DNA from: a virus
IMG/VR virus record: IMGVR_UViG_3300046796_000521
Coordinates: 1 to 39,974 of that record
DNA: 39,974 nucleotides
Strand: one strand, 5' to 3'
Within the stretch, counting starts at the first letter, position 1. Each line of letters begins with the position of its first letter. The notes beneath the pieces were generated by a model. It saw only the letters and a program-made list of their open reading frames with translations. It had not been told where the DNA came from and did not search any database. Below, piece by piece: positions 27,508 to 34,439 of the stretch. The position numbers were made by a program, and so were the translations under genes.

Positions 27508-28002
27508 CTAGGCGACAGCGGCGCGGAGCGACGGGCCGGTGCCCGCAGCGCCGGCGGTGATCTTCATCGGGATCTCGTACCGCTCGACCGAGTTCGGCTC
27601 CGGGTCCATGCGCGCGACCTCGCCACACAGCGCCGGGTAGACCTCGACGCCCTGCGTCGACGTCCACGCGGTCGCCTGGGCGACCGACCGGCGGATCACA
27701 ATGAACCCGGCGGTATCGCGGATCAGCGTGGTGAAGATCGTGTCGCCCGACGCCTGCTTCTTCAGCCGCAGCCGGGTATTGGAGAAGGACGCCCGGCCAT
27801 TGACGTTGGAGGTGAACACCGACGCCAGCGAGGACGTGTCGACATCGGCGGTGTCCGGCTGGAACCCGGACAGGCCATCGGCGGTCAGCGTCGACGTCAG
27901 GTCGATGCCCGCGTTCAGTTCGGTCGTGGTCGGGGCGTTCTGGTTGCTGATGCTCGTGACCCAGTAGACCCTGGTCTTGCCATCAGCGGGGACGTCGGCC
28001 AT
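27508..28002 (-). CDS. Major tail protein
   Basis: 164 aa, ATG 28002. Begins ADVPADGKTRVYWVTSI, followed by a Thr/Ser-rich beta protein (ELNAGIDLTSTLTADGLSGF). Length, composition and place directly before a terminator and the tail chaperones identify it as the tail tube protein. Further motifs: SNTRLRLKKQASGDTIFTTL and MKITAGAAGTGP. Confidence 0.85.
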   Translation of the reverse strand: MADVPADGKTRVYWVTSISNQNAPTTTELNAGIDLTSTLTADGLSGFQPDTADVDTSSLASVFTSNVNGRASFSNTRLRLKKQASGDTIFTTLIRDTAGFIVIRRSVAQATAWTSTQGVEVYPALCGEVARMDPEPNSVERYEIPMKITAGAAGTGPSLRAAVA

Positions 28003-29371: not shown

Positions 29372-29757
29372 CCCAGGCCCAGCGCTTTCACGGCTAGGTC
29401 CTCCATCGCCTTCTCGAACCGCGGCTGCTCGGCGTCGGCGGCCGGGCGCATGAACGGCATCGCCGCGTTCTTGATCGTCCCGAACTCGGCGATGTTGCCC
29501 AGCGGGCCCTGGGGCTTCGAGTGGTTGGGGCCAATTTCAGCGGCCGGGCCTTTGAGGCTGCGGTACATGTCGAAGTCGATCGAGGCGGGTAGCCGGCGCA
29601 GACGTGGGTGACCGGAGATCCGGCGGGCGCCGTCCCGCTTGATGTTCAGTGCGCCCTTGAAGACGACGGCCTCGGTGTCCTTCTCCGCCACGGCGGACGC
29701 CTTCGTGATCGCGTCTGCGAAAGCGGTGACCTCATGAGCGTCGAAACCCCAGCTCAT
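29368..29757 (-). CDS. HK97 gp10-like neck protein
   Basis: 129 aa from ATG 29757 (ATGA overlap; a GTG start at 29778 is less likely). Helical N-terminus (EVTAFADAITKASAVAEKD), then a segment with KRDGARRISGHPRLRRLPAS and a C-terminus rich in Glu/Lys. This matches the HK97 gp10 family of head-tail neck proteins. Typical neighbours on both sides. Confidence 0.75.
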   Translation of the reverse strand: MSWGFDAHEVTAFADAITKASAVAEKDTEAVVFKGALNIKRDGARRISGHPRLRRLPASIDFDMYRSLKGPAAEIGPNHSKPQGPLGNIAEFGTIKNAAMPFMRPAADAEQPRFEKAMEDLAVKALGLG

Positions 29758-30158
29758 GAGCCCGTCACCTCCGTGCAAGACACCCGGCGGGCCGTCGGCT
29801 CGCTCTTGTGAGCCAGGTCGTGCACCAGGAACGTGCGGCCCACGAGATCCTGATCGTTGACCGACGCCGTGATCAGCACCTGGTCGCCGACCTTCAGGCC
29901 CTCGGTCCCGGCGACGGGGAGCTGGACGTCGATGCGCTGCTCGAGGATGTAGTCCTGGCCGACGTCATGCGGGCGCCCGATACCGGTGATCTGCTGCACG
30001 CGGCACTTCCCCGCGTAGAGCTGGGTGTAGGACTGCGTCGGGTACCCGGTGACCGGGTCCGTTGTCCCGCCGGCGTTTGCGCGCCGGATCGTGCAGGTGT
30101 CGACCATGCCGGCTTCGGCGGCGGCCTGACCGCGGGCGAGGACGGAGGCGCGGGACAT
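29754..30158 (-). CDS. Head-tail connector (DUF6093-like)
   Basis: 134 aa, ATG 30158. Begins SRASVLARGQAAAEAGMVDT and CTIRRANAGG, the start of DUF6093-like actinophage proteins. Further beta segments GDQVLITASVNDQDLVGRTF. In the gene order it occupies the place of the head-closure protein. Confidence 0.8.
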   Translation of the reverse strand: MSRASVLARGQAAAEAGMVDTCTIRRANAGGTTDPVTGYPTQSYTQLYAGKCRVQQITGIGRPHDVGQDYILEQRIDVQLPVAGTEGLKVGDQVLITASVNDQDLVGRTFLVHDLAHKSEPTARRVSCTEVTGS

Positions 30159-30167
30159 CGGGCCTCC

Positions 30168-31655
30168 TCAGTCGTTGCAGCTGCAGGGCCGGACGGTGGT
30201 GCCGCCGTCCGGGCGGGCGGTCATCCCCGATCCGGGCCGGGTCGTGGTGCCCAGGTTCGGGCGGTGTGTTGTGCAGTCGCAGACCTCGGCGGCGGGCGTG
30301 ACAGCCTGGCCCCGGAACAGGCCGGCGATGCGACGTTTGAACCTGGCGAGGACCGGCACGTACGCCGGCGGCACGATGACCACCTGCGGCGGGACGGGCA
30401 TCGCCGCGCGCGGGCGGGCCAGCCGCAGGCCCTTCAGACGCGAGCGGACCGGACGCGGCGGGTAGGCAGGCGGCGTCACCACGATCTGCGGCGGCGGCGG
30501 CATCGCAGCGCGGCCGCGCCGTGGCGCCATCGGGTGGGGACGGAGGTGCGGCGCTGTCGGGACGGCGGCCTGACTGTTGACCGGCGCGGCGGTGCGGGGC
30601 CGGAACAGACGCAGCCACTTCAGCCGCGGCCGTACAGATGCCGGGACGTACGCGGCCGGGGTGACCGCGACCTGGCCGGGCGCCGGCGTGGCCGCTCGGC
30701 CACGGAAGATCCGCAGGCCACGCAGCCGGGTACGGACCGGGCGCACCGGATACGCGGGAGCGTTGACCACTACCTGCGCCGGCACCGGGGTGAACATCTC
30801 ACCGCGGCGAGCCAACAGGCCACGCAGGCGCCGCGGCTGCTTGATGCCGGTGAACGGGAACGGCGGGTTGACCTGGGCGCGGACCGGCGTCGAGGCGCGC
30901 GCCCGGCGTGGTGGCGGCTGGGTCCGCCGGCGGGCCTGCTGCATCGGCGGATATGTTGCCGCTGCGGCCGACGCCACCTTGATGACGATCGCCGCAGCCG
31001 CGTAGTTGAACAGCGCGCCGCCGCCCGGGCGCAGGTCTACCCAGTCGACCGTGGTGGAGGTCGACCCGGTACGGATCTCCGATTCGAGCGAGCCCCAGTT
31101 GGTGTTGTTGAGGTCGTCGATCTCGGTGAACGCCGAGCCGGGGCTGATGTTCGCCGTGACCTTGTCGGCAAAGACGAACCCGAACGCCTCGTCGCCGGAG
31201 GCCGGGGCAGCCGACAGCGTGATGCTGGCCGGGTCGGGCGGGCCGGTGAAGCCACCGCCCTGCGTGTTCGTGCCGGTCCCGCCGACGGGCGTGCCGGCGT
31301 TGTAGCCGGTGTAGCAGACGACCGAGACGCCGTAGAGGCCCGCCGCGCGGCCGGACGTCGAGAGCGTGACCGTCATCGACGAGCCCGTGGTGACAGGCGC
31401 CGTCCAGATCTTCACCAGCGACGAGAACGCCGTCGGTGCGACCACGGCGGTCGCCTGCTGCGTCCAGGTCAGCGACCCGCCGGAGATCGTCAGCGCGCTC
31501 GTCGGATCGGTTGTCGAACCGCTGTTCTCGACGAACGCAGCACCCACGACCAGCAGGGAACTGCTGGACGGGGTGAAGCTGCTGGACGTGAAGTTGCCGG
31601 TGCCGAAGTTCCCGGAGGTGATCTGGCCGAGAAGGTTGGTGCGCGACAGCGCCAT
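30168..31655 (-). CDS. Virion protein with Arg/Pro-rich tandem repeats
   Basis: 495 aa, ATG 31655. The first 230 residues are a beta-rich Ser/Thr/Gly domain (e.g. LTWTQQATAVVAPTAFSSLV and GSSMTVTLSTSGRAAGLYGV), like a jelly-roll decoration domain. From about 235 the protein is made of roughly 34-residue repeats with the consensus TPVPxQVVVxPPAYPPRPVR, then xRLRGLRLFRxRA; four clear copies, two divergent copies and one short one. The repeat region is very basic. The end has CDC...CSC around small RPG/RPD repeats. Place between connectors suggests a head or neck fibre. Function unknown. Confidence 0.75.
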   Translation of the reverse strand: MALSRTNLLGQITSGNFGTGNFTSSSFTPSSSSLLVVGAAFVENSGSTTDPTSALTISGGSLTWTQQATAVVAPTAFSSLVKIWTAPVTTGSSMTVTLSTSGRAAGLYGVSVVCYTGYNAGTPVGGTGTNTQGGGFTGPPDPASITLSAAPASGDEAFGFVFADKVTANISPGSAFTEIDDLNNTNWGSLESEIRTGSTSTTVDWVDLRPGGGALFNYAAAAIVIKVASAAAATYPPMQQARRRTQPPPRRARASTPVRAQVNPPFPFTGIKQPRRLRGLLARRGEMFTPVPAQVVVNAPAYPVRPVRTRLRGLRIFRGRAATPAPGQVAVTPAAYVPASVRPRLKWLRLFRPRTAAPVNSQAAVPTAPHLRPHPMAPRRGRAAMPPPPQIVVTPPAYPPRPVRSRLKGLRLARPRAAMPVPPQVVIVPPAYVPVLARFKRRIAGLFRGQAVTPAAEVCDCTTHRPNLGTTTRPGSGMTARPDGGTTVRPCSCND

Positions 31656-31699
31656 GCCGTGCCCCGCCCCTCAGCTACCGACCGACCGCAGGGGGCGAA

Positions 31700-32218
31700 T
31701 CAGACCTCGATCTCGACGTTGATCCGGATCTGGTGCGACGCCGGCAGCGTGTTGCCGATGTTCACGAACGCGATCCCGTTGGCCGTGCCGATGCCCACGA
31801 CGAGCTCCTCGATGAACTCGTACGGAAGATCTAGCGTGGACTGGGTGTTCAGCGGGATCACGGCGATCGGGTTCGTCGCCAGCGTCGGGCCGGTCGTGCC
31901 GATCGTGGTCGCGGTGATCGCGAACAGGCCCGCGGTCGGGTCGGTCTGCGGCGTCCACGTCTCGTACGGCTGACCCGGGATGGCCGCGGCGATGCCGGTG
32001 CCCGACGGTGCCACCGTCTGCCGGTACACGCCGACCGAGATCTGCTGCGACGTCGGCACCGACGCGCCGGCGATCACGCCGAGCTGCAGGCGCCGCATCC
32101 GGAAACCGGAGGTGGCCGAACCGCCCCAGTAGCCCATGTAGCCGTTGACGGTCGTGGTCGAGTTGACGCCGCTCAGCTGCGCGGCCTGGGACAGGATCGA
32201 GGCGCCGTAGCGGGCCAT
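31700..32218 (-). CDS. Hypothetical virion protein
   Basis: 172 aa from ATG 32218, with GAGAGGA upstream. Hydrophobic/Thr-Gly-rich beta composition (TTTVNGYMGYWGGSATSGF, TATTIGTTGPTLATNPIAVI). Probably a capsid-associated or fibre subunit, placed between the connector and the repeat protein. No family recognised. The 44-bp gap upstream shows no promoter. Confidence 0.7.
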   Translation of the reverse strand: MARYGASILSQAAQLSGVNSTTTVNGYMGYWGGSATSGFRMRRLQLGVIAGASVPTSQQISVGVYRQTVAPSGTGIAAAIPGQPYETWTPQTDPTAGLFAITATTIGTTGPTLATNPIAVIPLNTQSTLDLPYEFIEELVVGIGTANGIAFVNIGNTLPASHQIRINVEIEV

Positions 32219-32262: not shown

Positions 32263-32835
32263 TCAGTCGCGGGAGCCGATCACGTAGACCGGCGTGCCGT
32301 AGGTTGAGCGCAGCCGGTCGCGCATGCCGTCGGTGACCTGCATCCGACCGTCGGCCTCTGCGTACGTGATGCTGTAGTCGTCGATCTTCTCGGCCGACGC
32401 GGTCCCGCCGGGGTTGCCGTAGCCGGCGCCGGCTAGGGCGAGCGTCATGTCCCGGGCGAGTTGAAGGCCCTGCTCGCCCGCGAGGTAGCCGTAGGTGTAG
32501 GTGACCGTGACCAGCGTCGGGGCCGTCCAGTTGCGGTTCCACGCCGCGAGCCGCCACAGCTGCTGGTTGCGCAGCAGCCACTCGGTATCGGCCACGCCGT
32601 CGATCAACACGGTGGCGACCGAGCGGACCGGCAGCTGCGGCAGCGGAAGCCACGGGTCGCCGTCGAAGATGTCGACGGTCAGCCCGATCGTGGCGGTGCC
32701 GCTGATCAGCCGTTGCCCGCAGGCTGCCTGAACCTTGCCGGTCGCCATCTCGATCAGCAGGTCCGCCGTGGCGTTGTCGACGTCCTGTTTCAGGAAGGCG
32801 GCGAGCTCCGTTCGCGTCACCAGTTGGTCAGCCAC
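32263..32835 (-). CDS. Head-tail connector protein (gp6-like)
   Basis: 190 aa, GTG 32835. N-terminal helices (VTRTELAAFLKQDVDNATAD and LLIEMATGKVQAACGQRL), then a beta region with VRSVATVLIDGVADTEWLL and VTVTYTYGYLAGEQGLQLAR. This is the shape of HK97 gp6-type adaptor proteins that join portal and neck. Confidence 0.8.
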   Translation of the reverse strand: MADQLVTRTELAAFLKQDVDNATADLLIEMATGKVQAACGQRLISGTATIGLTVDIFDGDPWLPLPQLPVRSVATVLIDGVADTEWLLRNQQLWRLAAWNRNWTAPTLVTVTYTYGYLAGEQGLQLARDMTLALAGAGYGNPGGTASAEKIDDYSITYAEADGRMQVTDGMRDRLRSTYGTPVYVIGSRD

Positions 32836-33560: not shown

Positions 33561-34439
33561 TCAGATGCCGGTCGGGCGGGTGATGTCGGCGTAGGCCAGC
33601 GCGTCCGGGCGGATCAGCTTGCCGCCGTACAGGTACAGGCCCTTGATGGCGTCGGCGAACTTCGCCTCCGGCCGGTACGCCTCGGTCTTGTTGACCTGCT
33701 CGGCGAACGACAGCGCGTCGCTCGAGCCGGCCGTGGCGATGTTTCGGCCGCCCGACGGGATCGGCGTGTTGTTCGACACGAGGATGTCGAATCCGGCCGC
33801 CCGGCCGACCATGCCGTTGCGGGAGACGTCGCTGGTGCCCTGGCCGTCGAAGCGGGAGAACAGCGACGACAGCAGCAGCATCGCGTGGCCCCACGGCGGG
33901 ATGATGCAGTAGCGGCCCTCGGTCGGCACGTTGGCCTCGTCGAGCTTCACCTTCAGTGGCACGAGGACCTTGTTGTAGAACTCCTCGGTCGCGGTCGTGC
34001 CGATCGCGGTGAAGGTGATCGTCGAGCCGCCGTTGACGGCGTTGCCCGACTGGATGCCGGTGTACAGGCCGGCCACGTACTGGTCGGCCTGGTCGGCCAG
34101 CTTGTACGCGGCGCGCTGCATCGCCGTGGGGATCACGTCGCCCTTGGCCTGCCGCTGGTCGACGTCATCGACGAAGAACGCGAAGTACTTCGCCTGGTCG
34201 ACCACGAGCGTGCGCTGCGCGTCGGTGAGTTCCTCGGGGACGACCGAGGTCACGTTCGGCGTGTACGTGCCGATCGTCGGGTCGGAGATGGAGGTGATCC
34301 GGACGGTGTCGCCGGCCTGCGTGATCTCACCCTCGTAGTCACGGTTCACGACGCCGGGGCCGGCGTACACGAGCCGCTTCTGGAGGGCGACCAGCAGCGC
34401 GGCAGACCAGATCTCCGGGACGAACCTGCGGATCGCCAT
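33561..34439 (-). CDS. Major capsid protein (P22-type coat family)
   Basis: 292 aa, ATG 34439. Typical features of the P22 gp5-like coat group in actinophages: RFVPEIWSAALLVALQKRLV near the start, YEGEITQAGDTVRITSISDP, AFFVDDVDQRQAKGDV, YCIIPPWGHAMLLLSS and GKLIRPDALAYADITRPTG at the end. Placed after the scaffold gene. It forms the capsid shell. Confidence 0.9.
   Translation of the reverse strand: MAIRRFVPEIWSAALLVALQKRLVYAGPGVVNRDYEGEITQAGDTVRITSISDPTIGTYTPNVTSVVPEELTDAQRTLVVDQAKYFAFFVDDVDQRQAKGDVIPTAMQRAAYKLADQADQYVAGLYTGIQSGNAVNGGSTITFTAIGTTATEEFYNKVLVPLKVKLDEANVPTEGRYCIIPPWGHAMLLLSSLFSRFDGQGTSDVSRNGMVGRAAGFDILVSNNTPIPSGGRNIATAGSSDALSFAEQVNKTEAYRPEAKFADAIKGLYLYGGKLIRPDALAYADITRPTGI

Follow-up and report, generated by a model that had tools for sequence, protein, structure and literature searches.

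Among the described ways of attaching fibres to a phage head, that of Agrobacterium phage 7-7-1 has been resolved at the base of the capsid fibre, where the linker proteins LP1 and LP2 meet a decoration protein on an HK97-fold capsid; a chain-like linker runs under the beta-rich decoration protein, one of the linkers bears an Ig-type domain that is believed to reach into the fibre, and the partners are joined by disulphides (PMC12796354). This is the nearest described arrangement to the one proposed for the gene pair reported here, which was found in the 39,974-base IMG/VR virus record IMGVR_UViG_3300046796_000521, analysed as a whole and referred to below as the window. The pair consists of a 495-aa protein with Arg/Pro-rich tandem repeats and a neighbouring 172-aa protein, designated JR172. 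Our preferred reading, to which we give a probability of about one half, is that the former is a modular surface fibre of the head or neck whose repeat region mounts on JR172, with its swappable ends directed outward.

The repeat protein and its gene neighbourhood

The window is from a soil actinobacterial phage, the closest terminases being those of the Streptomyces phages Kromp, phiSASD1 and Dubu. Genes on the minus strand run in the order terminase large subunit, portal, head maturation protease, scaffold and major capsid protein, followed by a 128-aa protein, a head-tail adaptor, JR172, the 495-aa repeat protein and a DUF6093 head-tail stopper, and then by a neck protein, a terminator-like gene and further tail genes, including the major tail protein (27508-28002) and the tape measure. 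The matches of the capsid protein to phrog_267 and Phage_capsid_4 identify it as having the HK97 fold. The relevant features are listed below, where labels such as L004 denote loci collected for comparison.

30168..31655, minus strand: Arg/Pro-repeat fibre-like protein, 495 aa (open reading frame; coding by dN/dS; conserved in IMG/VR relatives)
30951..31655, minus strand: N-terminal beta-sandwich domain, residues 1-235 (AlphaFold2 strands; homologues in L004, L006, L007, L028, L034 and L039)
30306..30941, minus strand: Arg/Pro 34-residue repeat region, residues 239-450 (repeat analysis; no predicted fold as a lone chain)
30168..30305, minus strand: C-terminal tail with RPxSG-type repeats, Cys-bounded (CDC...CSC) (sequence; similar tails at many loci)
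31700..32218, minus strand: JR172, 172 aa, beta-rich, jelly-roll-like, linked to Arg/Pro-repeat proteins
29754..30158, minus strand: DUF6093 head-tail stopper, directly downstream of the repeat gene (Pfam PF19586, E 7.6e-32; Arthrobacter homologues annotated as head-to-tail stopper)
32263..32835, minus strand: head-tail adaptor (phrog_442, E 8e-22)
33561..34439, minus strand: major capsid protein (phrog_267, E 6.7e-70; also Pfam Phage_capsid_4)

In the Streptomyces (Kromp, phiSASD1, Dubu), Arthrobacter and Brevibacterium phages examined, no comparable protein is annotated between adaptor and stopper. The Brevibacterium phages AGM are known for tandem repeats and were considered as carriers, and were rejected: in these, DUF6093 directly follows the adaptor, with no insertion.

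The open reading frame noted at 30168-31655 by an earlier, sequence-only reading is present on the minus strand with an ATG start and 495 codons for amino acids, and the polycationic, Arg- and Pro-rich character attributed to it was borne out (20% Pro, 17% Arg, and 39 Lys + Arg against a single Asp or Glu in residues 239-440). The net charge of the repeat region (residues 239-440) at pH 7 is about +38, compared with -6.5 for the acidic N-terminal domain. Its Gly content is 4%, and the tandem Gly-X-Y triplets that define collagen-like fibres are absent from it, the period being 34. This 34-residue periodicity was evident in the self-similarity of the sequence (mean BLOSUM62 score 0.58 at lag 34 and 0.96 at lag 96), and over lags 5 to 109 none of 500 composition-preserving shuffles rose above 0.03. 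P-x-x-Q motifs occur at residues 257, 290, 324, 358, 386 and 420, with spacings of 28-34. The earlier estimate of about seven units is reasonable when degenerate units at the ends are included, but only six carry the motif and four are full by profile. The Cys-bounded end is present as described (CDC...RPCSC). Unit number varies among relatives; L005, for example, has extra units in the middle, and its first unit, its last unit and its CDC...CSC tail are conserved.

The sequence-only reading had also held that it would fail if the repeat frame proved untranslated, which did not turn out to be so. Differences between the window and L005 at the first, second and third codon positions number 49, 36 and 89 (dN/dS 0.31), and dN/dS was 0.19 for the repeats of the window and L003 (few changes), 0.24 for L005 and L010, and 0.49 for the window and L040. 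With a third-position excess and dN/dS of 0.19-0.49, the repeat frame is under purifying selection and is therefore translated. Antisense to it lies a 721-codon open frame (window 29808-31973, plus strand). Because selection in the relatives acts on the minus-strand frame, this one is in all likelihood a shadow frame arising from the GC-rich composition. Gene position and conservation lend good support to the description of the product as a virion protein with a beta domain and polycationic repeats, gene order suggesting that it belongs to the virion.

AlphaFold2 predicts a beta-sandwich for the N-terminal domain (pLDDT mostly 65-88 in residues 1-130, lower beyond) and no fold for the repeats as a single chain (pLDDT about 32-44). 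The predicted protein is thus a chain largely without its own fold and with an appended beta domain, a feature expected of a linker of the 7-7-1 type. A Foldseek search of the PDB with the full model gave a best E of 0.03 at very low TM, the unfolded half spoiling the search.

A mosaic slot beside the stopper gene

With the DUF6093 stopper as bait, 80 loci were collected, 64 of them non-redundant. In about 40 of the 80, the gene for a protein ending in RPx(S/T)GxT repeats abuts the stopper upstream or is found at a distance of one or a few genes; a raw list of 54 includes some matches that are out of frame. The N-termini of these proteins are various beta-type domains, or none, and the stalks in the slot are GAGALTA-like, Asp/Ala-rich, neutral Pro-rich, of a 'RDPGE...REVPAQ' type, or Arg/Pro. 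The N-terminal domain of the window protein is fused to an Arg/Pro stalk in the window and L003 and to a GAG stalk in L006, and is a stand-alone gene in L004, L007, L028, L034 and L039. Since this domain occurs with different stalks or alone, the Arg/Pro repeat is one of several stalks that can replace each other, and comparison of the loci shows a slot for mosaic fibre-like proteins in which phages swap N-domain, stalk and tail. The Arg/Pro repeats (n = 24 proteins) have net charges of +14 to +21 per 100 aa, against a mean of -0.4 (range -10.7 to +12) for the other stalks of the slot (n = 36), L151 and L155 being left out of these figures.

Several other features of the slot were noted. The tail of 8-residue RPx(S/T)GxT repeats is widespread, closing fibre-like proteins whose domains and stalks differ greatly and whose genes neighbour DUF6093 at many of the loci L026-L105 (e.g., L094:4249-5991, L037:2858-5992 and window 30168-30305), and no family was found for it. 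At loci with non-Arg/Pro stalks the position of JR172 is taken by family f5, a different beta-type protein of about 156-166 aa (L043:3986-4486, L028:4038-4538, L036:3821-4321), which may be its functional counterpart. A common fold was suspected and f5 was tried as a JR172 homologue, but the profile comparison was negative (with shallow alignments). At many GAG-stalk loci, stalk gene and DUF6093 are separated by a gene for a conserved protein of 142 aa (MAGIPQSMASN...; L028:5576-6004, L042:5576-6004, L109:5570-5998), for which there is no PHROG family. The gene directly upstream of the stopper at L085:3911-5398 encodes a protein of 495 aa that starts like a signal peptide and whose C-terminal half looks glycoside-hydrolase-like by eye.

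Linkage of JR172 and the Arg/Pro repeats

All 23 contigs on which the repeat HMM detected a repeat protein also carry JR172, and among the loci surveyed it detected none where JR172 was lacking. The stopper-bait sample was gathered irrespective of either gene, and its 64 non-redundant loci divide into five with both, one with JR172 alone, none with the repeat protein alone and 58 with neither (Fisher p 8e-7, a descriptive value that ignores ancestry). The sole exception, L039, has an Arg/Pro-rich 255-aa gene that falls below the profile cut-off and was found by reading the translation. This link to the neighbouring 172-aa gene, overlooked by the sequence-only reading, is the strongest clue to the repeats. 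The search for the repeat in other phages, which that reading had advised, succeeded at JR172 loci (the 23 contigs found by HMM) and gave no relatives by tblastn among cultured phages.

A scan with JR172 as the only bait returned 40 loci, nearly all of which, where the flank was long enough, have an Arg/Pro-rich protein nearby. Most were recognised by profile, and others by reading the translation (L128, L129, L135, L139, L140, L145, L150 and L152; L144 weakly; L146 and L148 about 5 kb away); such by-eye calls are softer than profile matches because GC-rich shadow frames are also Arg/Pro-rich. L119, L122-L124, L127 and L149 end too early to judge, and L147 has only 3.7 kb downstream. An out-of-sample test used JR172 alone as query against 394 genomes from a single bacterial class, the one to which Actinoplanes italicus belongs. 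The single match was a remote JR172 homologue, followed downstream by an Arg/Pro repeat ORF of 601 aa that has units such as RRGRFTEPPWPQGPQGQAWPSLMEPAGSRPRWAPKL. At this locus (L155; G177:C29:70000-88000, in a bacterial genome), a stand-alone N-domain-like gene lies upstream of the JR172 homologue, and tblastn found none of the other structural genes of the window in the stretch.

Across the Arg/Pro proteins the N-domain varies freely, and the C-termini also differ in L128, L135, L139, L142 and L143. Where the JR172 homologue is most remote (38-45%), the accompanying Arg/Pro protein is short and lacks an N-domain, its length being 82 aa in L150, 144 aa in L152, 213 aa in L151 and 255 aa in L039. 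Common to the repeats is a skeleton of roughly R-R-G-x-x-x-x-(V)P-x-(P/A)-Q. The repeat, and not either end, is the constant part travelling with JR172.

The linkage could reflect shared ancestry of a cassette. The tail proteins of the window and L028 are 93-100% identical and yet the JR172/repeat cassette differs, while the window and L027/L003 have JR172 (99%) and repeats in common but capsid proteins without similarity (the L027 capsid gene being assigned by position and length). Two neighbouring genes of L018 and L044 are 81% and 88% identical, L018 having JR172 and Arg/Pro repeats and L044 a family f5 protein and a neutral stalk. JR172 and the repeat gene are in reversed order in L040, and are separated by several genes in L018. 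Cassette swaps, unrelated capsids and reversed order together favour a functional linkage over mere descent.

JR172 is predicted to be beta-rich, with a beta sandwich or jelly roll, in a model whose confidence is modest (mean pLDDT 58.6). Conserved stretches of its sequence include PTSQQ, NTQS and LPASH. Among the structural neighbours of the model are phage cement or decoration proteins (KHP30, KHP40, 7-7-1, Milano) and exosporium proteins, at Z 4.5-5.8. Because any jelly roll may reach such Z values, these matches are leads only, and may reflect a common fold and nothing more. Against viral structure models the best match was weak (E 0.009), the matches being unnamed phage proteins.

Database searches gave no Pfam or PHROG match at E 0.1 or better for the 495-aa protein, and no PHROG match for the JR172 relatives L018 and L152. 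Profiles of both proteins found no PDB chain below E 0.4, and showed no sequence homology to the solved 7-7-1 components. By tblastn, JR172 was absent from 50,697 cultured-phage records, where filtering is a small concern, and the 495-aa protein and its C-terminal tail had no relatives among cultured phages, although BLAST filtering of the low-complexity repeats and tail may conceal some. The repeat profile gave no confirmed match in GTDB species genomes.

A proposed mount, its alternatives and known systems

On the preferred reading, JR172 would sit on the particle, and the Arg/Pro repeat would be an extended, Pro-rich, cationic chain laid on JR172 copies by repeated contacts, perhaps with one repeat per JR172 binding site, so fixing the fibre protein to the particle. 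The N-terminal beta-sandwich and C-terminal RPxSG tail would be exchangeable and face outward, where they would probably touch host or environmental surfaces. The slot lies where head and tail join, and the mount could be on the capsid or on the neck; because the pair occurs with unrelated major capsid proteins, the capsid protein is not an obvious site of direct attachment. A more tentative extension is a portable, capsid-independent display mount, with the unstructured cationic repeat serving as a multivalent JR172 ligand that could bear arbitrary N-domains and tails, and repeat number tuning its reach.

Host wall polymers or membranes, as suggested by the sequence-only reading, are possible targets of the repeat. 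The polycationic stalk would then be the sticky part, binding anionic wall polymers (e.g., teichoic acids) or actinobacterial membranes, with JR172 as a base or assembly helper. The charge is strong and conserved, and the fibre-like slot and beta domains suggest surface exposure, but the same slot is also served by neutral and acidic stalks. Parts of a phage that contact the host are usually variable, whereas the Arg/Pro part is the conserved one and is tied to JR172, and we consider this explanation unlikely. We are equally doubtful that the repeat is a mere stiff or extended Pro-rich spacer, with JR172 co-inherited in the cassette without contact. The repeats have no predicted fold, other Pro-rich stalks exist (L044, L088) and cassettes move as blocks; against this, JR172 and the repeats stay together despite the intervening genes of L018, the inverted arrangement of L040 and JR172 identity down to 38%.

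DNA binding inside the head, also suggested by the sequence-only reading, found no support; the repeat would in that case act on the packaged genome much as a small core protein does. The repeat is Arg-rich with nearly no acidic residues and is encoded in the head-tail region, but its fusion partners are an acidic beta-sandwich and a Cys-bounded tail, and close relatives fill the slot with neutral or acidic stalks. The near-neutral average charge of those other stalks argues against a general DNA-binding role, and we regard binding inside the head as very improbable. GC-rich DNA does give long shadow frames that are Arg/Pro-rich by composition, one of them here reaching 721 aa on the opposite strand. 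Even so, there is next to no chance that the reading frame is an artefact, given the third-position excess, a dN/dS well below 1 in the repeats, and homologues that keep the frame with differing unit numbers.

If the preferred reading is right, the pair would be an undescribed two-part mount for phage surface proteins, recurrent in soil viromes and unseen in cultured-phage records. It would explain why a strongly cationic, Pro-rich chain is the constant part of a highly exchangeable fibre, predicts that JR172 binds the Arg/Pro repeats, and would offer a compact peptide-protein pair to study. The part of the literature covered yielded no account of a repeat-JR172 pair.

Like 7-7-1, the window encodes an HK97-fold capsid protein and a chain-like protein bearing a beta domain; JR172, predicted to be beta-rich, may correspond to the decoration protein. 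The disulphides of 7-7-1 have no parallel, JR172 of the window being without Cys, and no Arg/Pro tandem repeat is described in 7-7-1. We know of no repeat-protein partner for the cement proteins of KHP30 and KHP40. These proteins (7dn2, 7dou) have a mid-scoring likeness to the JR172 model (Z 5.0-5.3), within the common beta-sandwich range, and no sequence relation to JR172 was detected. ExsF of the Bacillus exosporium, in complex with the F-Anchor fibre peptide (PDB 9h3d; Z 4.5 to the JR172 model), is described as a jelly-roll-like protein holding a fibre-anchor peptide; it belongs to the spore surface and not to a phage, and would be an analogy of mechanism only. Collagen-like or Gly/Ser/Thr-rich phage stalks are also repetitive and join domains, but the window repeats differ in being without Gly-X-Y, Arg/Pro-rich and strongly cationic. 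An accessory virion fibre with an anchor protein is a known kind of system, while this pairing and its cationic, Pro-rich mount appear to be new.
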